NCBI GenBank assembly: GCA_001664005.1
Contig: CP016093.1
Coordinates: 248,001-312,000, forward strand
DNA length: 64,000 bases
Source: Rhizobiales bacterium NRL2
Lineage (GTDB): Bacteria > Pseudomonadota > Alphaproteobacteria > Minwuiales > Minwuiaceae
Reading direction: 5' to 3'
A program made the position numbers and the translations under genes. The notes beneath the pieces are model-generated. The model saw nothing but the letters and a program-made list of their open reading frames with translations, was not told the DNA's origin and made no database searches. Positions 2,635 through 53,307 of the stretch are shown here, piece after piece. Within the stretch, counting starts at the first letter, position 1. Every line of letters begins with the position of its first letter.

Positions 2635-3160
2635 CAACCGCTCCGCTTCGCGCTCGCGGGAGCTATTGGAGCAGAACTTCAACCGGCCGTCGAGACTGGG
2701 GGTCAATCGACCGGGTTCGGTCACTGGCCGAGCAGGTCCCGGCTCTCCCCCGGATCAAGTGTCCGGGGTCCGGCCGGGATGACACCAATGGAAGGGCCTC
2801 TCCCCCGGTGTCATCCCGGACCAGGCGCGAAGCGCCGGCGATCCGGGACCCCTGGAAACATTACCCGCTCCGCGTCCCGGACGGACCGCAGGTCCGATCC
2901 GGGAGCCACGCCTGAAGTTTTCCGGCAGCGTGGTGCGAGGCGGTGATGCTCCGGCATGGGTCCCGCGCCGCCGCCGATGCGGCGCGCAGGACTCGTGGGG
3001 GTCCGCGGTCCTTCGAGCGCGAATTCCCTCCCTCTTCGGGGAAGGGGGAGGGTCAGGAAGGGGGATGGCCGGACAATGGCGTGCTTGAGGACGGCGGGAT
3101 GGCAGTCAGCAGGCGCGCGGGCCGGCCAGACCATCCCCCGCGCGCCATGTGGGGGCGCTG
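2635..3160. repeat. Repeat-filled intergenic region between DUF805 gene and hslU
   Basis: No convincing gene in 526 bases. It holds at least four repeat types: a 13-bp perfect inverted repeat (CCGGGATGACACC at 2774-2786 with its complement at 2807-2819); a copy of a 'cccggatcggac..ggtccgtcc' family on the minus strand at 2871-2963 (partner at 8944-9040); a CCTCCC-type palindrome at 3026-3052; and the 3'-end hairpin at 3112-3146. Confidence 0.75.
3112..3146 (-). repeat. 3'-end hairpin element, hslU copy
   Basis: On the minus strand: stem GGCGCGCGGG, 15-nt loop GGATGGTCTGGCCGG, stem CCCGCGCGCC, all 10 pairs perfect. It starts 14 nt after the hslU stop. The same loop with a different NNN is found after uvrC, mnmE, qor and cfa. 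The intervening text (AACAGCGCCCCCACAT) resembles that at the qor copy. Confidence 0.85.
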
Positions 3161-4471
3161 TTAAAGAATGAACTTCGACAGGTCGGCGTCCTCGGCCAGT
3201 TCGCTGACCTTGTCCTTCACATAGGCGGCGTCGATGTGGACGGTCTCGCCGGCGCGGTCGGAGGCGGTGAAGCTGACCTCCTCCAGCAGCTTCTCCATGA
3301 TGGTGTGCAGCCGCCGGGCGCCGATGTTCTCGACCGAGTCGTTAACCTGCACGGCCAGGTCGGCCAGGGTCTCGATGGCGTCGTCGGTGAACTCCAGCGT
3401 GACCTCCTCGGTCGCCATCAGCGCCGTGTACTGGCGGATCAGGCTCGCTTCCGTCTCGGTCAGGATGCGCTGGAAGTCGTTCTTCGTCAGCGGCTTGAGC
3501 TCGACGCGGATGGGCAGGCGGCCCTGCAGTTCGGGCAGCAGGTCCGACGGCTTGGCGATGTGGAAAGCGCCCGAGGCGATGAACAGGATGTGGTCGGTCT
3601 TCACCGCGCCGTGCTTGGTGGAGACGGTGGTGCCCTCGATCAGCGGCAGCAGGTCGCGCTGCACGCCCTCGCGGCTGACGTCGGCGCCCTGGCGGTCGGA
3701 GCGGGCGGTGATCTTGTCGATCTCGTCGAGGAAGACGATGCCGTTGTTCTCGACCGACGAGATGGCCTCGGCCGTCAGCGTTTCCTCGTCGAGCAGCTTG
3801 TCGGATTCCTCGGCGATCAGGATCTCGTGGGATTCGTCGACCGTCATGCGCCGCGGCTTGGTGCGTCCGCCCATCATCTTGCCGAACATGTCGTTGAGAT
3901 TGAGCATGCCCATCTGCGCGCCGGGCTGGCCGGGAATGTCGAAGGTCGGCAGGTTCATGCCGCCCTGTTCCTGGACCTGCAGCTCGATCTCCTTGTCGTC
4001 GAGCTCGCCGTTTCGCAGTTTCTGGCGGAACTTCTCGCGCGTGTCGCGGCTGGCGCTCTCGCCGACCAGGGCGTCGAGCACCCGTTCCTCGGCGGCGAGC
4101 TCTGCCCGGGCCTTGACCTCGCGGCGGCGGCGCTCGCGCACCATGACCAGCGCCATCTCGACCAGATCGCGGATCATCTGCTCCACGTCGCGGCCGACAT
4201 AGCCGACCTCGGTGAACTTGGTGGCCTCGACCTTGATGAAGGGGGCCTCGGCCAGTTTCGCCAGACGGCGCGAGATCTCGGTCTTGCCGACGCCGGTGGG
4301 GCCGATCATCAGGATGTTCTTGGGCAGGACCTCCTCGCGCAGATCCTCGGGCAGCTGCTGGCGCCGCCAGCGGTTGCGCAGCGCCACCGCGACGGCCCGC
4401 TTGGCCTCGTTCTGGCCGATGATGAAGCGGTCCAGCTCGTGCACGATCTCGCGCGGGGAAAAGTTGGCCAT
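3161..4471 (-). CDS. hslU: ATP-dependent protease ATPase subunit HslU
   Basis: A 436-residue AAA+ unfoldase of the HslVU (ClpYQ) protease. It forms hexamers that recognise, unfold and feed substrates into the HslV chamber. Visible features: the N-terminal '[20 protein letters not shown]' signature, Walker A GPTGVGKT at 57-64, the long variable I-domain (about 110-240), Walker B 'IVFLDEID', and the C-terminal tail ending LSKFIL, which docks into HslV and activates it. Length matches the family. The start has AGGA upstream. It lies downstream of hslV on the same strand with a 42-nt gap, the usual operon. A perfect GC hairpin follows 14 nt after the stop. Confidence 0.98.
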
Positions 4472-6853: not shown

Positions 6854-6888
6854 CCCGTGTTTCAGAACATTTCCGCAGGCGCAGCGTG

Positions 6889-8763
6889 ATGGCAGAGCGC
6901 AGCGATTCAGCGGAGGACGTCGAGCAGCAGGACGGTTTCGCCGTGCTGCAGGGGCGGCTGAAGTCCCTGCCCGAGAGTCCCGGCGTCTACCGCATGCTCA
7001 ATGACAAGGGCGACGTGCTCTATGTCGGCAAGGCGCGCAACCTGAAGGCGCGGGTGACCAGCTACACGCGGGCGCGGGGCCTCTCCATCCGCATCGCCCG
7101 GATGGTGCAGATGACCGCCGAGCTGGAGATCATCACCACCCACACGGAAGTCGATGCGCTGCTGCTCGAAGCCAACCTCATCAAGCGGCTGAAGCCGCGC
7201 TTCAACATCATCCTGCGCGACGACAAGTCCTTCCCCTATATCGAGGTCAATCTGGACCACGACTATCCGATGCTGGTTAAGCACCGGGGCGCGCGGGAGA
7301 AGGACCGGGACTATTACGGCCCCTTCGCCAGCGCCACGGCGGTCAATCACACGCTGACGGCGCTGCAGCGCGCCTTTCCGTTAAGGTCCTGTTCCGACGG
7401 GGATTTCGCCACCCGCACCCGGCCCTGTCTGCAGTACCAGATCAAGCGCTGCCTGGCGCCCTGCGTCGGCTATGTCAGCCAGGAGGACTATGCCGAGCTG
7501 GTGGGCGAGGCGCGCGACTTCCTGTCGGGCCGCAGCCAGGCGGTGCGCGACGAGCTGGGCCGCAAGATGCAGCAGTCGGCGGATGCGCTGGAGTTCGAGG
7601 ACGCCGCCATGTACCGCAACCGGCTCTGGGCGCTGGCGCAGATCCAGCAGAAACAGGGCGTCAACGTGGAGGGGCTGGAGGAGGCCGACGTCATGGCGGC
7701 GGCGGCGGCGGGCGGCCAGACCTGCGTGCAGGTGTTCTTCTATCGGGCCGGGCAGAACTACGGCAACCGCGCCTACTACCCCAGCCATGCCAAGGATGAC
7801 GACACCGCCGACGTGCTCGCCGCCTTTGTCGGGCAGTTCTACGATTCCCGGCCCGCGCCGCGGCAGGTGCTGCTGAGCCACGAGGTGGAGAACCAGGAGC
7901 TCATCGCCGAGGCGCTGGGCGTCCGCGCGGGGCGCAGGGTGCAGCTGCTGACGCCGAAGCGCGGCGGCAAGAAGGAGCTGGTCGACCAGGCCGTCCGCAA
8001 TGCCGAGGAGGCGCTGGGCCGCAAGCAGGCGGAGACCCAGGCGCAGACGAAACTGCTGAAAGGCGTCGCCGAGGCCTTCGGGCTGGATGCGCCGCCGGCG
8101 CGCATCGAGGTCTATGACAACAGCCACATCATGGGCACCAACGCAGTCGGCGGCATGATCGTTGCGGGGCCGGAAGGCTTCAGGAAAGCCGCCTATCGCA
8201 AGTTCAACATCAAGTCGACGGAGCTGACGCCCGGCGACGATTTCGCGATGATGCGGGAGGTGCTGACCCGGCGGCTGCAGCGCCTGAAGAAGGAGCATGC
8301 GAGCCGCGACGGCGACTGGCCGGACCTGCTGATCATCGACGGCGGCAAGGGCCAGCTCGGCGTTGCCGAGGCGGTGCTGGAGGAGCTGGAACTGCAGGAC
8401 GCCGTCGCCGTGGTCTCGATCGCCAAGGGCGTCGACCGCAATGCCGGCCGCGAGGAGTTCCACGTCCCCGGCAAGGCGCCGTTCCGCCTGCCCGAACGCG
8501 ATCCGGTGCTCTACTACCTGCAGCGCCTGCGCGACGAGGCGCACCGCTTCGCCATCGGCACGCACCGGGCGCGGCGCTCGAAGCAGATCGGCCAGTCGCC
8601 GCTGGACGAGATCGGGGGCATCGGCCCGAAGCGGAAGAAGGCGCTGCTGCTGAAGTTCGGCTCCGCGAAGGGCGTGGCCCGCGCCGGCCTTGCCGACCTG
8701 GAGCGCGTCGACGGCATCTCCGGCGCCATGGCGAAACAGATCTACGATCATTTCAACGGTTAG
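6889..8763 (+). CDS. uvrC: Excinuclease ABC subunit C
   Basis: A 624-residue UvrC, which makes both incisions around a lesion in nucleotide excision repair after UvrB loading. Domains in order: GIY-YIG nuclease (about 30-110; 'GVYRML' and '[14 protein letters not shown]'), a Cys-rich segment ('[19 protein letters not shown]'), the UVR UvrB-binding helix pair (about 215-250), the RNase H-like endonuclease with '[12 protein letters not shown]' and '[11 protein letters not shown]', and a C-terminal (HhH)2 domain ('[16 protein letters not shown]'). ATG at 6889 is used; a GTG directly before it (6886) is an equal alternative. The 3'-end hairpin begins 5 nt after the stop. Confidence 0.98.
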
Positions 8764-9132
8764 AGGTCGGCCCGCCGGGGATGGCATGGCCGGCCGGCGG
8801 GCCTGCTGAATCATGCTGCTGAGGTCCCGGTTCGCGCCTCGCATTGCTCGGCTTGACCGGGATGACACCAAGAGGGGAGCCGGCCCGCGCCCCTGCTGAA
8901 TCGCCCTCGTTCCGAGTCCTGTGCGCCGCGTACGCGGCGACACGGGACCCACACCGGAGCCTTTCCGGCTACAAGGCGTTGCGCGGACCTGCTCAGGCAT
9001 GGGCCCCGGATCGGATCTGCGGTCCGTCCAGGACCCGGGATTGGCCAGGACGCATGCGTCCGCCACTCTTCCCCCCCGGACCCCCGGCGCGCTAGGCTGC
9101 GGGCCGCATCTGGAGCCAGGGGAGGGCGCGTC
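8764..9132. repeat. Repeat-rich intergenic region after uvrC
   Basis: No gene in 369 bases. It contains the uvrC 3' hairpin (8769-8803), a copy of a 55-bp element ending CCGGGATGACACC at 8823-8877 (partner at 12729-12783), a right-half remnant of the hairpin element (GCCGGCCCGCGC followed by CTGCTGAATC) at about 8880-8902, and the repeat at 8944-9040 whose partner is at 2871-2963. Confidence 0.75.
8769..8803 (+). repeat. 3'-end hairpin element, uvrC copy
   Basis: Stem GGCCCGCCGG, loop GGATGGCATGGCCGG, stem CCGGCGGGCC; 10 of 10 pairs. The stem sequence differs from the GGCGCGCGGG form at hslU and mnmE on both arms, so pairing is preserved by compensation while the loop is conserved. Followed by TGCTGAATCATG, a tail also seen (as TTCTGAATCATG) at the qor copy. 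Confidence 0.85.
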
Positions 9133-10044: not shown

Positions 10045-10317
10045 CTGTGCACCCATCCGCGCCACGACACAGGTCCTCGGGTCAAGCCCGAGGACTCCGG
10101 CATTGGGCAGGTTCAGCGTCCTGCGCGGCGCGTCAGCGCCGGCGCGGGACCCATGCCTGAGCTGGTCCGGGGGAAGCGGCGTTTCCATGATTCAGAAGGC
10201 GCGCGGGCCGGCCATGCCACCTGCGCTCGGGCGGCGACCCGGGGGTCCCCGGCGCGCCGACCGGCAATGCACGCGGGCCGGCCCAACCAACCCCCGCGCG
10301 CCATGTGGAACCGCTGT
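10045..10317. repeat. Composite repeats after the qor gene, with an enlarged hairpin element
   Basis: No gene. The proximal hairpin is at 10268-10302 (minus strand: GGCGCGCGGG, loop GGTTGGTTGGGCCGG, CCCGCGTGCA, one end mismatch and one G-U). A second right half (GGTGGCATGGCCGG, CCCGCGCGCC, TTCTGAATCATG) lies further downstream at about 10187-10222. Together they form a roughly 105-nt version of the 3'-end element. The rest is a 'tcaagcccgagga' palindrome near 10070-10095 and a 'gcgcgggacccatgcc' repeat near 10140. Confidence 0.7.
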
Positions 10318-11292
10318 CTACGGCAGCAGCACCGTCTGGCCCGTCGTCCTGCGGCCCTCGAGATCCCGGTGCGCCTGGGGCGCGTCGGCGAGCGCGTAGC
10401 GCTGGTTGATCTCGATCTTCACCTTGCCCGAGGAGACCATCTCCATCACCCGGCCGGCGGAAAGCTCCAGGTCGGCGCGGGTGGCGGTGTAGGTCATCAG
10501 CGTCGGGCGGGTCATGTAGAGCGAGCCCTTCGCCGCCAGCGTGGCCGGGGCGAAGTTCTCGATCGGGCCCGAGGCGTTGCCGAAGGTGACGTAGAGGCCG
10601 CGCGGCTGCAGGCAGTTGAGCGAGCCCTCGCAGGTCGCGGCGCCGACCGAGTCGTAGACCACCGGCACGCCCTTGCCGCCGGTCAGCTCCATCAGCTTCT
10701 CGCGGAAGTCCTCGGCGTTGTAGTCGATCACCTCGTCATAGCCGTGTTCGAGGGCGAGCTTCACTTTCTCGGGCCCGCCGGCGGTGCCGATGGCGCGCAC
10801 GCCCAGCGCCTTCAGCCACTGCCCGGCGATCTGGCCGACGCCGCCGGCCGCGGCGTGGAACAGCACCGTCTCGCCCGCCTTGCACTCGTAGGTGCGGTGG
10901 ACCAGGTACTCGACGGTCATGCCCTTCAGCATCATCGCGGCCGCGGTTTCGTCGTCGATGCCGTCGGGCACCTTCACCAGCTTGGAGGCGTCCATCACCC
11001 GCGCCTCCGAGTAGGAACCCGGCGGCGGGGCGGCATAGGCCACGCGGTCGCCGACGGCGATATGGTTCACGCCATCGCCCAGGGCCTCGACCACCGCCGC
11101 GCCCTCCATGCCGACGCCATAGGGCGCCGACTGCGGGTAGAGGCCCGTGCGGTGGTAGACGTCGATGTAGTTCAGCCCGATGGCCGTGTGGCGCACCCGC
11201 GCCTCGCCGGGACCGGGATCGGCCAGCTCGACATCCTCGAACAGCATCTTCTCCGGGCTGCCCGGCTCGTGCACGCGTATCGCCTTGACCAT
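10318..11292 (-). CDS. qor: NADPH:quinone oxidoreductase (zinc-independent MDR family)
   Basis: A 324-residue medium-chain reductase of the quinone oxidoreductase/zeta-crystallin type, which reduces quinones or alpha,beta-unsaturated carbonyls with NADPH. It has the N-terminal 'IRVHEPGSPEKMLFEDVEL', the 'GLNYIDVYHRTGLYP' segment that replaces the zinc site of alcohol dehydrogenases, the cofactor motif 'HAAAGGVGQIAGQWLKALG' and the C-terminal 'HRDLEGRRTTGQTVLLP'. No catalytic-zinc cysteine cluster is visible. GGAGAG precedes the ATG. Monocistronic; dienelactone hydrolase lies 100 nt upstream on the same strand. Confidence 0.93.
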   Translation of the reverse strand: MVKAIRVHEPGSPEKMLFEDVELADPGPGEARVRHTAIGLNYIDVYHRTGLYPQSAPYGVGMEGAAVVEALGDGVNHIAVGDRVAYAAPPPGSYSEARVMDASKLVKVPDGIDDETAAAMMLKGMTVEYLVHRTYECKAGETVLFHAAAGGVGQIAGQWLKALGVRAIGTAGGPEKVKLALEHGYDEVIDYNAEDFREKLMELTGGKGVPVVYDSVGAATCEGSLNCLQPRGLYVTFGNASGPIENFAPATLAAKGSLYMTRPTLMTYTATRADLELSAGRVMEMVSSGKVKIEINQRYALADAPQAHRDLEGRRTTGQTVLLP

Positions 11293-11394
11293 GTGGATCT
11301 CTCCTGCAACCCGTCACCGCCCGGCTCGTCCGGGCGGGTCCATGGGGGGAGGTGTGGAATGGATGGCCCGGACAAGCCGGGCCATGACGTCGGA

Positions 11395-12118: not shown

Positions 12119-12132
12119 GTTTCACGTGAAAC
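12119..12132. other. parS site 1
   Basis: GTTTCACGTGAAAC, a perfect 14-bp palindrome identical to the core of the bacterial chromosomal parS consensus. Flanks are C and G. It lies in the intergenic region upstream of the dienelactone hydrolase gene, about 8 kb from parB. ParB binds parS and spreads as a CTP-dependent clamp. Confidence 0.95.
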
Positions 12133-15239: not shown

Positions 15240-16570
15240 CCGGGCTGTCCGGCGCCGACACGATCTACGCTCTGTCCAGCGCGCCCGGTCCCGCCGGAGT
15301 CGCGGTGATCCGCCTGTCCGGCGCGGCCTGCGACACGGTCTGCCGGGGGCTGGCCGGGGATATGCCGGAACCGCGGCGGGCCGCGCTCCGCACCCTCCGG
15401 GATGGGCAAGGCGCGGCGATCGACCGCGGGCTGGTGCTGCGTTTTCCCGGACCGGGCAGCTTCACCGGGGAGGACGTGCTGGAGCTGCACGTCCATGGCG
15501 GCCGCGCCATTGTCGAGGATCTGCTAGGTGCGCTGGGCGGTTTCGAAGGGCTGCGCATGGCCGAGCCCGGCGAATTCACCCGCCGCGCCTTCGTCAACGG
15601 CCGCATGGATCTCACCGAGGCGGAGGGCGTCGCCGATCTGATCGCCGCCGAGACCACGGCGCAGCGACGCGCCGCGCTGGACCAGGCGGGCGGGGCGCTT
15701 TCCGGCCTCTATGACGGCTGGCGCGGGCGGCTGATCCGCCATCTCGCCCATCTGGAGGCCTGGCTGGACTTCCCCGACGAGGAACTGCCCGGCGGCGTCA
15801 TGGCCGGCGTGCTGGACGACGTGGCCGCTCTCGCGGGCGAGATCGCGGCGCATCTGGCCGATGCGCGGCGCGGCGAGCGGCTGCGCCGCGGGCTGCAGGT
15901 CGCCATCGTCGGCCCGCCCAATGCCGGCAAGTCGACCCTGCTGAACACCCTGGCCGAACGCGATGTCGCCATTGTCTCGGAGACGCCGGGGACGACCCGC
16001 GACGTGCTGGAAGTCCATCTCGATCTGGGCGGCTGGCCGGTGACCCTGATCGACACGGCGGGGCTTCGGGAGACGGAGGACGCCATCGAAAGGGAGGGCG
16101 TGCGCCGCGCCGCCCAACGCATGGCCGCCGCCGACGTGGTGCTGGCGCTGCACCCGGCGGACGGGGCGGCGGGATTCTCCATGCCGTCGCATGAAACCAC
16201 GGCGGCGCTGATCGAGGCGGTGAGCAAGGCCGACCGGCTGGGCCCCGGCGCGGCGGCCGGCGGGCGGCTCCGGCTGTCCGCGGCGACCGGCGAGGGCCTG
16301 CCCGAACTGCTGGAACGGCTGACGGCGCTGGCGGCGGAGCTGATGGCGTCCGGCGGCGGGGCGATGCCGACCCGGGCGCGGCACCGGGCGGGGCTGGCGG
16401 ACTGCCGTTCGGCGCTGGAGCGGGCGGCCGAAGGCGGCCCCGAACGGCCGCCGGAACTGATCGCCGAGGACCTCCGCCTCGCCATGCGGGCGCTGGGCCG
16501 CATCACCGGCGCCGTCGACGTCGAGGACCTGCTCGACGTCATCTTCCGGGATTTCTGTATCGGGAAGTGA
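15203..16570 (+). CDS. mnmE: tRNA modification GTPase MnmE
   Basis: MnmE works with MnmG to install the cmnm5 group on U34 of certain tRNAs. Present are the N-terminal formyl-THF-binding domain ('GVAVIRLSG', 'FPGPGSFTGEDVLELHVHGG'), the inserted G domain with P-loop 'GPPNAGKST', switch 'PGTTRD' and 'DTAGLRETEDAIE', and the family-defining C-terminus CIGK. The G4 motif reads SKAD instead of NKxD. Start is uncertain: GTG at 15203 (AGAAGG four nt upstream) overlaps DUF6489, while homologues begin at the segment SGADTIYAL, which here is preceded by CTG at 15245 with AGAAGGA nine nt upstream. The GTG is used as a standard start (455 residues; 441 from the CTG). The 3'-end hairpin follows 8 nt after the stop. 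Confidence 0.95.
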   Translation: MGGHVGQRQEGLTGLSGADTIYALSSAPGPAGVAVIRLSGAACDTVCRGLAGDMPEPRRAALRTLRDGQGAAIDRGLVLRFPGPGSFTGEDVLELHVHGGRAIVEDLLGALGGFEGLRMAEPGEFTRRAFVNGRMDLTEAEGVADLIAAETTAQRRAALDQAGGALSGLYDGWRGRLIRHLAHLEAWLDFPDEELPGGVMAGVLDDVAALAGEIAAHLADARRGERLRRGLQVAIVGPPNAGKSTLLNTLAERDVAIVSETPGTTRDVLEVHLDLGGWPVTLIDTAGLRETEDAIEREGVRRAAQRMAAADVVLALHPADGAAGFSMPSHETTAALIEAVSKADRLGPGAAAGGRLRLSAATGEGLPELLERLTALAAELMASGGGAMPTRARHRAGLADCRSALERAAEGGPERPPELIAEDLRLAMRALGRITGAVDVEDLLDVIFRDFCIGK

Positions 16571-16578
16571 TGCCGGTT

Positions 16579-16613
16579 GGCGCGCGGGGGATGGCTGGGC
16601 CGGCCCGCGCGCC
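16579..16613 (+). repeat. 3'-end hairpin element, mnmE copy
   Basis: Stem GGCGCGCGGG, loop GGATGGCTGGGCCGG, stem CCCGCGCGCC, perfect pairing. It lies between mnmE and parS site 2. Followed by TTCTG as in the enlarged qor copy. Confidence 0.85.
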
Positions 16614-16638: not shown

Positions 16639-16652
16639 GTTTCACGTGAAAC
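16639..16652. other. parS site 2
   Basis: GTTTCACGTGAAAC, perfect 14-bp palindrome flanked by C and G. It sits in the 140-nt gap between mnmE and mnmG, 3.4 kb upstream of parB. Confidence 0.95.
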
Positions 16653-18619: not shown

Positions 18620-19246
18620 ATGGACGCAGTTGGCTTCGCGGCCCGCACCGGTGTTTCACGTGAAACGGTCGAGCGTCTGGAGATCTACGCCGCGCAGCTG
18701 CGGCGCTGGAACCGGGCGATCAATCTCGTCGCCCCGAAAACCCTGGACGCCCTCTGGTCGCGCCACTTCCTGGACTCGTGGCAGCTTCTCGATATCGCCG
18801 GCGGGATAGGCGATGCAGGCGGGCGCTGGTACGACCTGGGCAGCGGGGGTGGATTTCCGGGCCTCGTGCTGGTCGCGTGCGGCCTCGAGGGCGTGACGCT
18901 GATCGAATCGGACCGCCGCAAGACGGCCTTCCTTCGGGAGACGGCGCGGGCGATGGGCGTCGATGCGGCGATCCACGCCGAGCGGATCGAGGATCTCGAC
19001 CTGCCGCCGGCGGACACGATCACGGCCCGCGCGCTGGCGCCGCTGCCGAAACTGCTCGATCTGTCGGCGCATCTGCGCGGGCCACATACACGCTGTCTGT
19101 TCCTCAAGGGCCAAGATGTAGAGAGTGAGTTGACTGCGGCCACGAAATATTGGAAATTCACTCTCTCCAGGCACCGAAGCCTCAGCGACAAGCGCGGGAC
19201 GGTGCTGGTCATGGAGGAGCTGACGCGCCGTGACGATCCAGCATGA
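18620..19246 (+). CDS. rsmG: 16S rRNA (guanine(527)-N7)-methyltransferase RsmG
   Basis: A 208-residue SAM-dependent methyltransferase that modifies G527 of 16S rRNA. SAM motif 'WYDLGSGGGFPGLVLV', followed by 'LIESDRRKTAFLRE' and 'ARALAPLPKLLD'. The N-terminal 'VSRETVERLEIY' is encoded by an intragenic parS palindrome (18653-18666). Its 3' end overlaps the parA GTG start by 17 nt, so rsmG and parA are translationally linked. Confidence 0.97.
   Translation: MDAVGFAARTGVSRETVERLEIYAAQLRRWNRAINLVAPKTLDALWSRHFLDSWQLLDIAGGIGDAGGRWYDLGSGGGFPGLVLVACGLEGVTLIESDRRKTAFLRETARAMGVDAAIHAERIEDLDLPPADTITARALAPLPKLLDLSAHLRGPHTRCLFLKGQDVESELTAATKYWKFTLSRHRSLSDKRGTVLVMEELTRRDDPA
18653..18666. other. parS site 3, inside rsmG
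   Basis: GTTTCACGTGAAAC preceded by T, matching 15 of the 16 consensus positions. It is read in frame as Val-Ser-Arg-Glu-Thr at codons 12-16 of rsmG, so the same bases serve protein and centromere. It is 1.4 kb upstream of parB. Confidence 0.95.
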
Positions 19247-43708: not shown

Positions 43709-45292
43709 TCACTCCCCGATCAGCGCCTCCAGCGTCTCCAGGCGGTCGGCCTCCGCCGCCGGCTTGTCCCAGCGGATGCGGGCGATGCGCGGGAAGCGCA
43801 TGGCGACGCCGGACTTGTGGCGCTTCGAGCGGTGGATGCCGTCGAAGGCGATCTCCAGCACCAGCTTCGCCTCGACGGCGCGGACCGGGCCGTAGCGCTC
43901 CACCGTGTGGTTGCGGACGAAGCGGTCGAGCTCGGCCAGCTCCGCGTCGGTGAAGCCGAAATAGGCCTTGCCCACGGGCACCAGCTCCGCGCCCGTCGCG
44001 CCGCCGCGCCAGGCGCCGAAGGTGAAGTCGGAGTAGAGCGAGGAGCGCTTGCCGTGGCCGCGCTGGGCGTAGAGCAGGACGCAGTCCACGGTCATCGGAT
44101 CGCGCTTCCACTTGTACCAGAGGCCTTTCGGCCGGCCGGCGCGGTAGGGGCTGTCGGCGCGTTTCAGCATCACGCCCTCGATCGCCGGATGCGGCGGGTC
44201 CATGCGCCGGGCCTCCAGTTCGTCCAGGTCGCGGAAGGGCACGAGCGGCGAGAGGTCGAGGCGCGGATGCGGCCTGGCCCGCGCCCAGGCCTCCAGGCGC
44301 GTGCGCCGGTCGTCGAAGCCGAGGCCGCGCAGATCCACCGCGCCGTCGAACAGGATGTCGTAGAGCCGGACGCCCGCGGGGAAGTCGGCCATCAGCTTCT
44401 TCGTCACCGTCTTGCGGTTGAGGCGCTGCTGCAGTTCGTTGAAGCGCCCGAGGGCGCCCTCGCGCATGACCAGCAATTCCCCGTCGAGCACGCCCTCGCC
44501 TTCCAGGCTCTCCAGCAGGTCGGGGAAGGCGGCGGAGATGTCGTCGCCGGTGCGCGAGAACAGCCGCCGCTCGCCGCCGCGCAGCGCGAGCTGGACGCGG
44601 ATGCCATCCCATTTCCATTCGGCCCGGAAATCGGCCGGGTCGAGCCTCGGGCGCTCGGCGTCGTCGAGCGCATGCGACAGCATCAACGGGCGGAAGACCA
44701 CCGCTCCGGAGAGGTCGGGCTTGGGCGCGCGGCCCTCGATCCAGTCGAACAGCGGGCCGTAGGGCGGCGCCAGCGCGTGCCAGACCTCCTCGATCTCGGC
44801 CGTGTCCGGCGCGCCCAGCTCGGCCAGCGCCGTCCGCGCCAGCCGCGCCGACACGCCGACGCGGAGCCCGCCGGTGATCAGCTTCAGCAGCGCCCAGCGG
44901 CCATTGGCGTCGAGGCGGTCCAGCAGGTCGGCGACCAGCGCCGGCGCGTCCTTCCGCGCCGCGGCCTCCAGCCGTTCGACGGTCTCGGCCAGGCCCGGCG
45001 CGGCGTTGGGCCGGACATCCGCTTCGGGCCAGATCAGCGCCACCGTCTCGGCCAGGTCGCCGACATAGTCGTAGGACAGGCGGAACAGCTCCGGGTCGGT
45101 GCGCGCGCCGGCCAGTTCGCGCACCAGCGCCGGCTTGACCGTCTTCAGGTTCAGCTCCCCGGCCAGGGCGGCCAGCGCCACGCCCCGGTCCGGGTCGGGC
45201 GTGCGGCGCATGTAGTCCGCGATCAGCCGCAGCTTGACGTTGCGCGCGCCGACATGGCTCAGCCGGTCGAGCAGTTCGGCGAAGGCTTCCAT
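43709..45292 (-). CDS. ATP-dependent DNA ligase (Lhr/Exo-associated type)
   Basis: A 527-residue ATP-dependent ligase. An N-terminal DNA-binding helical domain ('MEAFAELLDRLSHVGARNVK', 'LLKLITGGLRVGVSARL') precedes the adenylation domain with motif I 'EWKWDGIRVQLALRGGER' (K of KxDG), motif III 'LDGELLVMREG', motif IV 'IEGVMLKRADSPYRAGR' and motif V 'KWKRDPMTVDCVLL', then an OB domain. It seals nicks with AMP. This class is usually encoded with an MBL exonuclease, an Lhr-type helicase and a phosphoesterase; only the exonuclease is found here (46174-47187), with one gene between. Confidence 0.94.
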   Translation of the reverse strand: MEAFAELLDRLSHVGARNVKLRLIADYMRRTPDPDRGVALAALAGELNLKTVKPALVRELAGARTDPELFRLSYDYVGDLAETVALIWPEADVRPNAAPGLAETVERLEAAARKDAPALVADLLDRLDANGRWALLKLITGGLRVGVSARLARTALAELGAPDTAEIEEVWHALAPPYGPLFDWIEGRAPKPDLSGAVVFRPLMLSHALDDAERPRLDPADFRAEWKWDGIRVQLALRGGERRLFSRTGDDISAAFPDLLESLEGEGVLDGELLVMREGALGRFNELQQRLNRKTVTKKLMADFPAGVRLYDILFDGAVDLRGLGFDDRRTRLEAWARARPHPRLDLSPLVPFRDLDELEARRMDPPHPAIEGVMLKRADSPYRAGRPKGLWYKWKRDPMTVDCVLLYAQRGHGKRSSLYSDFTFGAWRGGATGAELVPVGKAYFGFTDAELAELDRFVRNHTVERYGPVRAVEAKLVLEIAFDGIHRSKRHKSGVAMRFPRIARIRWDKPAAEADRLETLEALIGE

Positions 45293-51915: not shown

Positions 51916-52001
51916 GTCACCCCCGCCTCTGTGCGGGGGTCCGGAGCGGCTTCGCCGCCTGTCCATGAATTGACCGGATGCCCGCACGAGGCGGGCATGA
52001 C
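51916..52001 (+). repeat. Dispersed palindromic repeat (partner at 6768-6853)
   Basis: Same 86-bp length as the 6768 copy; shares GTCACCCCCGCCT, GCGGGGGTC, GTCCATGAAT, GACCGGATGCCCGCAC and GCGGGCATGAC in the same order. No gene in the surrounding 251-bp gap. Confidence 0.85.
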
Positions 52002-52030
52002 GACTCGCGTACCTTCCGGATCCTGGAGAC

Positions 52031-52065
52031 GGCGGGCTGGCCGGCCCGGCCATCCCCGGCCCGCC
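52031..52065 (-). repeat. 3'-end hairpin element, cfa copy
   Basis: On the minus strand: stem GGCGGGCCGG, loop GGATGGCCGGGCCGG, stem CCAGCCCGCC (one C-A mismatch). It starts 12 nt after the methyltransferase stop. A third stem sequence, the same loop. Confidence 0.8.
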
Positions 52066-52077
52066 TGCACCAGGAGC

Positions 52078-53307
52078 TCAGCCCGGCTTCGTCAGGCGGA
52101 AATGGCCGACGTCGATGACGCCGTGCTGGAAGCCTGCGGCGCAGTAGGCCAGGTAATAGTCCCAGAGCCGCCGGAAACGCTGATCGAAGCCCGGCATGGC
52201 CTGGATGTCCCCCCAGGCGCCGTGGAAGCGTTCGCGCCAGTCCAGCAGCGTCCGCGCGTAGCACTGGCCGAAGAAGCGTTCGGCCCGGGCCTCCAGCCCC
52301 GCCGCGCCCGCCGCGCGCACCAGACGCTCGGCGCTGGGCAGCATGCCGCCGGGAAAGACGAAGCGCTGGATGAAGTCGGCGCGGCGGCGGTAGCTCTCGA
52401 AGGCCGCCTCGTCGATGGTGATGGACTGCACCACGGCCCGCCCGCCGGGCTTCAGCCGTTCGCGGACGGTGTGGAAGAAGGCCGGCCAGTGTTCCTCGCC
52501 CACGGCCTCGAACATCTCGATGGAGACCACGCGGTCATAGGCGCCCGCGGTCTCGCGGTAATCGGTGAGGTGGAAGCTGGCGCGGTCGGCGAAGCCGCCC
52601 TCGGCCGCGCGCCGCCTGGCCCATTCGAGCTGCTCGGTGGAGAGGGTGACGCCCTCGACGGTGGCGCCGTATTCGCGCGCGGCGAACGCCGCGAAGCCGC
52701 CCCAGCCGCAGCCGATCTCGAGCACCCGGCAGCCGGGCCGGAGCTCCGCCAGCTCGGCGATGGCGCGGTACTTGGCTTCCTGCGCGCGCTCCAGACTGTT
52801 GGCGCCGTCGGCGTAGAGGGCGGCGGAATAGGTCATCGAGGGGTCGAGCCAGCGGGCGTAGAAGTCGTTGCCCAGATCATAGTGCTCGGCGATGTTGCGC
52901 CGGCTGCCGCGGCGGCTGTTGCGGCGACGGCGGTGGGCCAGCAGGTTGACCACCCGCGACAGGGCCGAGCCCTGCAGCGCGTCGTGCAGCGCCGTGCGGT
53001 TGGCCTGGATCACCCGGAACACCGCCAGCAGGTCCGGCGTCGTCCATTCGCCATCCAGAAAGGACCGGGCGACGCCGATCTCGCCGCCGAGCGCCAGCCG
53101 TCTCAGCGCCCGCCAGTCGCGGATCGCGACCTCCGCCGTCTCGCCGCCGGCGCCGCCTTCCAGCACCCGCCCGTCGGGCAGGGTCACGCGGATGCGGCCG
53201 CACTCCATGCGCGCCAGCAGCCCGGCCAGCAGCCGCGGCCAGAGCCGTCCCGCCAGCCCCGCGCCCTCGCGGCGGCCGGCGTTCCCGAGATCCAGGTCCA
53301 TCGTCAT
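52078..53307 (-). CDS. cfa: Cyclopropane-fatty-acyl-phospholipid synthase family methyltransferase
   Basis: A 409-residue SAM-dependent lipid methyltransferase. N-terminal domain with 'RIRVTLPDGRVLEG' and 'GVARSFLDGEWTTPDLLAVF', the 'IAEHYDLGNDFYARWLDPSM' segment, SAM motif 'VLEIGCGWGGFAAFAAREYG', 'GVTLSTEQLEWARRRAAE', 'VSIEMFEAVGEEHWPAFF' and 'FPGGMLPSAERLVRAA'. These match Cfa-type enzymes acting on unsaturated acyl chains in situ; the same gene set in relatives includes furan-fatty-acid methylases, so the product is not certain. Overlaps the DUF1365 gene by four bases. Confidence 0.93.
   Translation of the reverse strand: MTMDLDLGNAGRREGAGLAGRLWPRLLAGLLARMECGRIRVTLPDGRVLEGGAGGETAEVAIRDWRALRRLALGGEIGVARSFLDGEWTTPDLLAVFRVIQANRTALHDALQGSALSRVVNLLAHRRRRNSRRGSRRNIAEHYDLGNDFYARWLDPSMTYSAALYADGANSLERAQEAKYRAIAELAELRPGCRVLEIGCGWGGFAAFAAREYGATVEGVTLSTEQLEWARRRAAEGGFADRASFHLTDYRETAGAYDRVVSIEMFEAVGEEHWPAFFHTVRERLKPGGRAVVQSITIDEAAFESYRRRADFIQRFVFPGGMLPSAERLVRAAGAAGLEARAERFFGQCYARTLLDWRERFHGAWGDIQAMPGFDQRFRRLWDYYLAYCAAGFQHGVIDVGHFRLTKPG

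Follow-up and report, generated by a model that had tools for sequence, protein, structure and literature searches.

A hairpin behind five genes

The window analysed here (the whole stretch of DNA that was examined, 64,000 nt) contains five copies of a 35-nt hairpin, each located a short distance past the stop codon of a gene and in the same orientation relative to that gene. The initial annotation had reported these copies from the letters alone, 5–15 nt behind the stops of hslU, uvrC, qor, mnmE and cfa; the five positions, the spacing and the orientation were all confirmed, the identities of the host genes agree with Pfam, and no T-run follows the hairpins. The features concerned are the following.

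3112..3146, minus strand: hairpin copy of subfamily A, stem GGCGCGCGGG, loop GGATGGTCTGGCCGG, 14 nt past the hslU stop
3147..3160, minus strand: leader between the hslU stop and the stem, of the 'CCACAT' type common to further copies
3161..4471, minus strand: hslU-like host gene (Pfam AAA_2, HslU-like AAA)
6886..8763, plus strand: uvrC host gene (Pfam UvrC)
8769..8803, plus strand: hairpin copy of subfamily A, stem GGCCCGCCGG, 5 nt past the uvrC stop
10198..10258, minus strand: degenerate second tandem copy downstream of the qor copy, its loop split by extra sequence (limits by eye)
10268..10302, minus strand: hairpin copy of subfamily A, loop GGTTGGTTGGGCCGG, 15 nt past the stop of the qor-like gene
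10318..11292, minus strand: qor-like host gene (Pfam zinc-binding dehydrogenase)
15305..16570, plus strand: mnmE host gene (Pfam MnmE; the called start may be too short)
16579..16613, plus strand: hairpin copy of subfamily A, 8 nt past the mnmE stop
51994..52015, minus strand: putative decayed inverted A hairpin beyond the B tail of the cfa copy (by eye, limits approximate)
52031..52065, minus strand: hairpin copy of subfamily B, stem GGCGGGCCGG with one C.A mismatch, 12 nt past the cfa stop
52078..53307, minus strand: cfa host gene (Pfam CMAS)

The 10-bp stem that had been attributed to every copy is perfect in three of the five; the outermost pair of the qor copy is a mismatch and the same stem has one G.U, and the cfa copy carries the C.A mismatch. 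Read by eye, 51994..52015 would be what is left of the partner with which the cfa copy once formed a dimer. The pattern GGNTGGNNNGGCCGG was found six times in the window, as compared with a mean of 0.37 after shuffling, the sixth match, at position 1899, being absent from the list of perfect palindromes. Folded alone, the five hairpins have predicted energies of -23.3 to -27.8 kcal/mol. When 40-nt flanks are included, the hairpin as drawn is the predicted optimum in two of the five (the uvrC and mnmE copies), and another pairing is predicted for the hslU, qor and cfa copies. Membership in an Rfam family was discarded, with 0 matches in the window at the curated score. The window also contains three GTTTCACGTGAAAC palindromes (12119-12132, 16639-16652 and 18653-18666), the second of them 25 nt past the mnmE hairpin, which we take to resemble parS, the site bound by ParB.

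Size and distribution of the family

The pattern GGATGGNNNGGCCGG has 28 matches in the genome from which the window derives (G000; 4,700,671 bases in one contig), and a covariance model gives 59 matches there at E ≤ 1. A search of the genome and its relatives with such a model, suggested along with the initial annotation, recovered at E ≤ 0.01 51 matches in G000 and 55 in the sister species G004, a member of the same genus that is about 95% identical (92–97% in most aligned stretches). The congeners G001, G002, G003 and G005 have 3–6 matches each, and G006, a draft of 660 contigs that is 89% complete, has zero. The expansion is thus a lineage-specific burst, with 51 and 55 copies in the two sister species versus 0–6 in five congeners. 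Very little was found beyond the genus: single weak matches in two of the 53 other genomes among 60 searched with the model; at E ≤ 1e-4, matches in four genomes of the genus, G000 among them, and in a single genome from outside it, out of 385 of the class; in 80 uvrC loci from named bacteria whose UvrC is 57–63% identical (the closest, at 63%, being that of Thalassospira), three matches at E ≤ 1, with 0.022 as the lowest value; and, in a plasmid search, a sole, partial match over 36/89 bases from Azospirillum.

Gene context was analysed with gene calls from a codon-score script, independent of external annotation, for 124 of the 133 matches in the genus (56/59 in G000, 55/55 in G004 and 13/19 in the other congeners), the remainder being G000 4188742, G000 419841 and 419887 (plus strand) and 6/19 congener matches. 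Copies with at least eight of the ten pairs in register were regarded as credible; 21 of the 124 were dropped, which left 103, namely 44 in G000, 50 in G004 and 9 in other congeners. Carriers represent roughly 1% of the genes in two closely related species. Of the 44 credible copies in G000, 31 are at 0–1.3 Mb and 10 beyond 3.4 Mb, with 3 in the intervening 2.1 Mb; this uneven spread (p about 4e-8) places the bulk of the family in the chromosomal region to which the window belongs. Since the copies of G000 and G004 are largely orthologous, tests that pool the two species are non-independent.

Anatomy and conservation of pairing

The repeated unit consists of a leader of about 3–15 nt, the 35-nt hairpin (10-bp stem, 15-nt loop) and a tail of about 6–9 nt. 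The loop GGNTGGNNNGGYYGG, with the consensus GG N T GG NNN GG Y Y GG, is common to the subfamilies, and the leader, stem and tail vary between them. As judged by eye, subfamily A has the leader CCGGTY or CCACAT, the stem GGCGCGCGRG or that of the uvrC copy, and often the tail TTCTGAATC; subfamily B has a leader ending in CA, the stem GGCGGGCYGG and often the tail GTCTCC; and subfamily C has the leader GAAACC, a stem that begins with GC and has a highly variable interior in which pairing is kept, and the tail GGCTC. Among the loops, that of G003 2605667 is conserved except that its central part is one base longer (TCAA); in a G001 copy (L070) that follows a closely similar gene end, this part reads CCG.

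The differing stems of the five window copies, which had been read as both arms changing together, belong to different subfamilies; variation that preserves pairing is seen within subfamilies. In an alignment of 22 copies (17 others besides the five of the window), 97.7% of the cells of a 14-pair structure are paired, and two-sided change occurs in 7/14 pairs, above all 500 shuffles. Within subfamilies, pairing reaches 96.7% in A, 95.7% in B and 98.3% in C, versus 88.6%, 92.7% and 67.2% after shuffling, and the count of two-sided pairs was equalled in 0, 5 and 5 of 500 shuffles, respectively, the test for C being based on 12 copies, one of which (C81:19016) is an A copy misplaced by the automatic sorting. 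RNAalifold predicts an additional 4-bp inner helix within the loop, between columns 17-20 and 24-27. Columns 25 and 26 hold only C or T in all 103 copies, their partners G18 and G19 are invariant, and the six departures from the eight loop Gs all fall on the four Gs that are unpaired in this model; the predicted helix is supported by the C/T-only columns and by the placement of these departures.

Selection on the stem as RNA should yield an excess of G.U pairs, and the outer stems of 82 stop-proximal copies have 10 G.U as compared with 12 A.C, which counts against it. Watson-Crick pairing is only slightly better in stop-proximal copies (788/820) than in distal credible ones (195/210), and the idea that proximal stems are clearly better paired was rejected on these figures. 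In folding of the isolated copies the outer stem is kept in 94/103 and the inner helix in 81/103; once 40-nt flanks are added, the predicted optimum contains the outer stem in 59/103 and has lost it in 44/103.

Besides single hairpins, the family forms inverted dimers in which a B hairpin and an inverted A hairpin, joined by a 17-nt linker, occupy the space between convergent genes. Their distances from the two stops are 4 and 9 nt at 4342637/4342689, 6 and 5 nt at 957252/957304, and 9 and 25 nt at 482165/482217. At 44303 and 757922, tandem arrays and 3'-arm stubs with tails occur downstream of a stop-proximal copy; three arrays from congeners were viewed, and in these the full stem is kept only in the copy next to the stop.

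Anchoring to stop codons

The copies are not scattered irrespective of gene ends and strand, the outcome that the initial annotation had set against its own reading. Rather, 82 of the 103 credible copies start at most 17 nt past a same-strand stop (81 within 15 nt, one overlapping the stop). Eight others are located further behind a same-strand gene; of those that follow an opposite-strand gene, 12 are more than 17 nt away and a single one is close. One credible copy lies inside a called gene. Counted as clusters, 79/91 are anchored (34/39 in G000, 40/46 in G004) and 12/91 are not. In long stretches of G000, 20 of 25 elements are anchored versus 4.9% expected for uniform intergenic placement of a 35-nt stretch, and other palindrome families in the same stretches are anchored in 1/23 (one of these 23 being inside a gene), 0/15, 1/11 and 0/7 cases. 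Dispersed palindromes of the window and the G000 stretches that are not stop-anchored include CCCTCCCCCTT..AAGGGGGAGGG, GTCCTGGGGTCAAGCCCCAGGAC, TCATGCCCGC..GCGGGCAT and CCGGGATGACA. For perfect palindromes that have a stop next to them, the distance is 17 nt or less in 25/31 elements versus 15/80 others, the latter including one element with an altered loop (345464). At G000 192052, 16 nt from a stop, there is a 61-nt palindrome whose 24-bp stem is perfect and whose loop has 13 nt.

TGA stops are rarer in genes with the element, with 15/36 versus 330/444 in G000 and 11/41 versus 305/396 in G004. When genes are matched for the length of the downstream gap, with gaps of 110 nt as the minimum, TAG/TAA are favoured over TGA with odds ratios of 2.8 (p 0.02) in G000 and 4.3 (p 0.0008) in G004, the two species being non-independent. 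Predicted structure peaks at +5 in 45 genes with a nearby element, and exceeds that of shuffled sequences at about +10 to +55 in 159 element-free genes.

Comparison with the sister species and congeners

For 16 of the 56 G000 matches (8 of them credible), there is no G004 match near the mapped place or the place could not be mapped. The other 40 G000/G004 pairs include three with a match in the other orientation only and five with non-credible alignments, which leaves 32 credible orthologous pairs. The arms are identical in 14 of these, 6 differ in both arms in a balanced manner, and 12 show one-arm or uneven change. The balanced differences, all of which keep pairing, are at 44303, 256766, 482165, 757922, 766373 (with an uncertain G004 partner) and 4147858. 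At all of these except 766373 the position of the stop is kept and both stem and leader differ, and at four (44303, 256766, 757922 and 4147858) the type of stop codon differs as well. As leader and stop codon type differ alongside the stem, the pattern looks like exchange of a block instead of stepwise compensation, and the comparison of the sister species gives no support to the view that stems diverge mainly by compensating one base at a time. One G004 copy (C53) nearly matches another (C65) in the stem and the start of the loop. At the uvrC site the sister species has the stem GGGGCGCGGG/CCCGCGCCCC, with leader and stop codon differing too, and at the mnmE site its TAG stop runs into the stem; at the uvrC end in other congeners the element is absent.

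Three sites occupied only in G004 were compared with G000 (C4:43440, C15:111045 and C15:72300). At C4:43440, G000 holds a stub made of the leader and 5' arm; at C15:111045 it has a CGTC-REP-like hairpin past the same stop (window 11363-11385). At 212741, no such hairpin is present in G004. The TAG that precedes the hairpin at G004 C81:19016 corresponds to CAG at G000 3744813, where the hairpin may consequently be entered by the open frame.

At two loci shared among congeners, conservation of the hairpin is close to that of the coding sequence. In the first, common to G001, G002 and G003, the hairpin region is alike at 46-48 of 49 positions and the coding sequence at 562-566 of 600, and 300–700 nt downstream 46–51% of the aligned columns agree, about as in unrelated sequence; the spacer right behind this hairpin is also much alike, and hence conservation extends beyond the hairpin. 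In the second, the values are 46/47 for the hairpin, 572/600 for the coding sequence and 75 for the next 99 nt.

Relationship to REP elements

The family is best read as REP-like dispersed palindromes with no RAYT detected. In the broad definition given in part of PMC12306157, REPs are extragenic, palindromic, short, mutually similar and multi-copy, and the present elements are extragenic palindromes of 35 nt with 44 credible copies in their own genome. As far as the relevant portions of that source go, 446 of 4,072 REPs in an E. coli survey lie within 15 nt of a stop, earlier work quoted there gives 260/496, and an effect of REPs less than 16 nt from the stop on translation termination or mRNA stability of the upstream gene has been reported. 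The likeness to E. coli REPs, to the extent that those portions describe them, is that of short, multi-copy intergenic palindromes, one class of which sits close behind stops. The present family is unlike them in that 81/103 hairpins are within 15 nt, the distance associated with translation-linked REPs (a class that also reduces upstream-gene translation), and in its large conserved loop and exchangeable stems.

According to excerpts of PMC3733652, CGTC REPs are mostly alphaproteobacterial, form dimers with complementary stem variants, lack a dedicated transposase and occur near ORF 3' ends, at less than 20 bp when between convergent genes in S. wittichi. Features in common, insofar as these excerpts cover them, are the alphaproteobacterial host, the formation of dimers, stem variants that keep complementarity, a position at ORF 3' ends and the absence of a detected dedicated transposase. 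The same excerpts describe an 8-9 bp stem, a 4-5 nt loop and an unpaired CGTC tag, and mention further REP-like families that carry no tag; on that description, the family studied here differs by its 10-bp stem, its 15-nt loop and the lack of a tag across subfamilies. The sequence CGTC does run across the 3' end of the stem in 28/103 copies, nearly all with subfamily B stems, with its C paired, an arrangement that is not that of CGTC REPs, and the CGTC-like palindromes of the own genome are stop-anchored in 1/23 cases. GTAG REPs and BIMEs, in the extracts of PMC2817692 and PMC3733652 that treat them, are associated with a RAYT transposase, occur as single, inverted and tandem hairpins, and are said to often provide the TAG stop of flanking ORFs by their ends. 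Single, inverted and tandem arrangements, as outlined in these extracts, are found here too; a GTAG tag within 7 nt 5' of the stem is present in 1/103 copies and GTAG or CTAC on the 3' side in 1/103, and the copies are not GTAG REPs by this feature. The RAYT family (Y1_Tnp, PF01797) was detected in 0/7 genomes of the genus (the own genome and six congeners, some of them drafts), which disfavours a RAYT-driven REPIN; among the 10 genomes searched, PF01797 has one occurrence, in a genome of another genus (G008), and 6/14 control genomes were positive.

The present family has a conserved larger loop and neither GTAG nor CGTC as a common tag. It is unusual among known REPs in this large conserved loop, in its exchangeable stems and in its strict stop anchoring, and no report recognised as describing it came up in the open-access literature searched by general terms other than the loop sequence.

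Possible roles and origin

The hairpins are genuine members of a small, mostly stop-anchored repeat family, which probably acts in the region of the mRNA end. Our preferred reading, which we hold tentatively at a probability of roughly 0.47, is that of a stop-anchored REP-like family whose hairpin, once transcribed, would tune termination and mRNA 3'-end stability. Short REP-like palindromes have spread in one bacterial lineage and occur mostly 3–15 nt past stops on the coding strand, where the hairpin, abutting the terminating ribosome, would mark the 3' boundary of the message and modulate translation termination and 3'-end stability of the upstream gene. A hairpin 3–15 nt past the stop sits where the message enters the ribosome during termination, and together with the reports on E. 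coli REPs this location leads us to favour such a role. As no Y1/RAYT transposase was found, spread is assumed to occur by conversion between copies or through another enzyme acting in trans.

The anchoring, the keeping of pairs, the inner helix, the conservation at congener loci, the retention of the stop position despite stem exchange and the peak of predicted structure at +5 in genes with an element are in favour of this explanation. A functional RNA 3' end, as the initial annotation had proposed, thus remains the favoured interpretation, backed by anchoring, orientation, conservation at two loci and pair-keeping within subfamilies; what does not fit its simplest form is that the element is a dispersed repeat with dimers, arrays and a burst, has no G.U excess, shows 12 one-arm or uneven versus 6 balanced changes in 32 pairs and retains its stem in the flanked optimum of only 59/103 copies. 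One-arm changes, the parity of G.U and A.C and the folding with flanks speak against strong selection on the stem at the RNA level. The 85 clusters of G000 and G004, many of them orthologous and some stem-exchanged, form a compact natural set that allows a gene-by-gene test of whether REP-like hairpins close to stops affect translation termination or 3' ends, and the family raises the question of how REP-like repeats spread without a RAYT.

The copies might instead be a selfish or neutral REP-like repeat that a mobility system inserts near gene ends, with nothing in it for the host, an explanation we regard as somewhat unlikely. The burst seen in G000 and G004, the occurrence of 3'-arm stubs, tandem arrays and inverted dimers, and the frequency of one-arm stem change are all compatible with it, as is the report of CGTC REPs without a dedicated transposase in the pertinent part of PMC3733652. 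Against it, the four other palindrome families in the same stretches are not stop-anchored, and the hairpin is conserved about like coding sequence at the two congener loci. A target motif made of the stop codon appears unneeded as well: in the 20 nt before the stem, TAA, TAG and TGA are all absent from 9/14 unanchored copies and present in 5/14, and we rejected the stop codon as a required insertion target.

A bolder version, in our view improbable, is a movable 3'-end cassette in which stop codon, leader and hairpin together replace the gene end behind the last sense codon; this would supply a standard termination hairpin, recognised via its constant loop and spread by a non-RAYT system. Hints in this direction are the change of stop type together with leader and stem, the TAG/TAA enrichment and the older 3'-arm stubs downstream.

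Position and orientation behind genes and a strong GC hairpin in the five copies when folded alone would also suit a transcription terminator, either intrinsic without a U-tract or a post-Rho end left after exonuclease trimming, and where G004 has the element at C15:111045 the own genome has a different hairpin past the same stop. Terminators require neither a distance of 3–15 nt from the stop nor a conserved loop, and the tails (TTCTGAATC, GTCTCC, GGCTCC) contain no T-run; the canonical intrinsic type was rejected for its absence in the copies inspected, despite the GC hairpin, and termination as the main function seems to us decidedly unlikely.

Very unlikely, finally, is a DNA-level element in which the GGN2GGN3GGN2GG loop, spaced as in the thrombin-binding aptamer, forms a duplex-closed two-tetrad quadruplex for a DNA-binding protein or recombinase: the outer stem lacks a G.U bias and 97/103 credible loops fit the eight-G pattern, a figure inflated by the use of a model built from the loop, but all six departures are on the four Gs unpaired in the inner helix and none on the other four, and columns 25/26 are C or T only. 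A CsrA-type GGA loop was dropped because its A is replaced by T, C or G in 32/103 copies.
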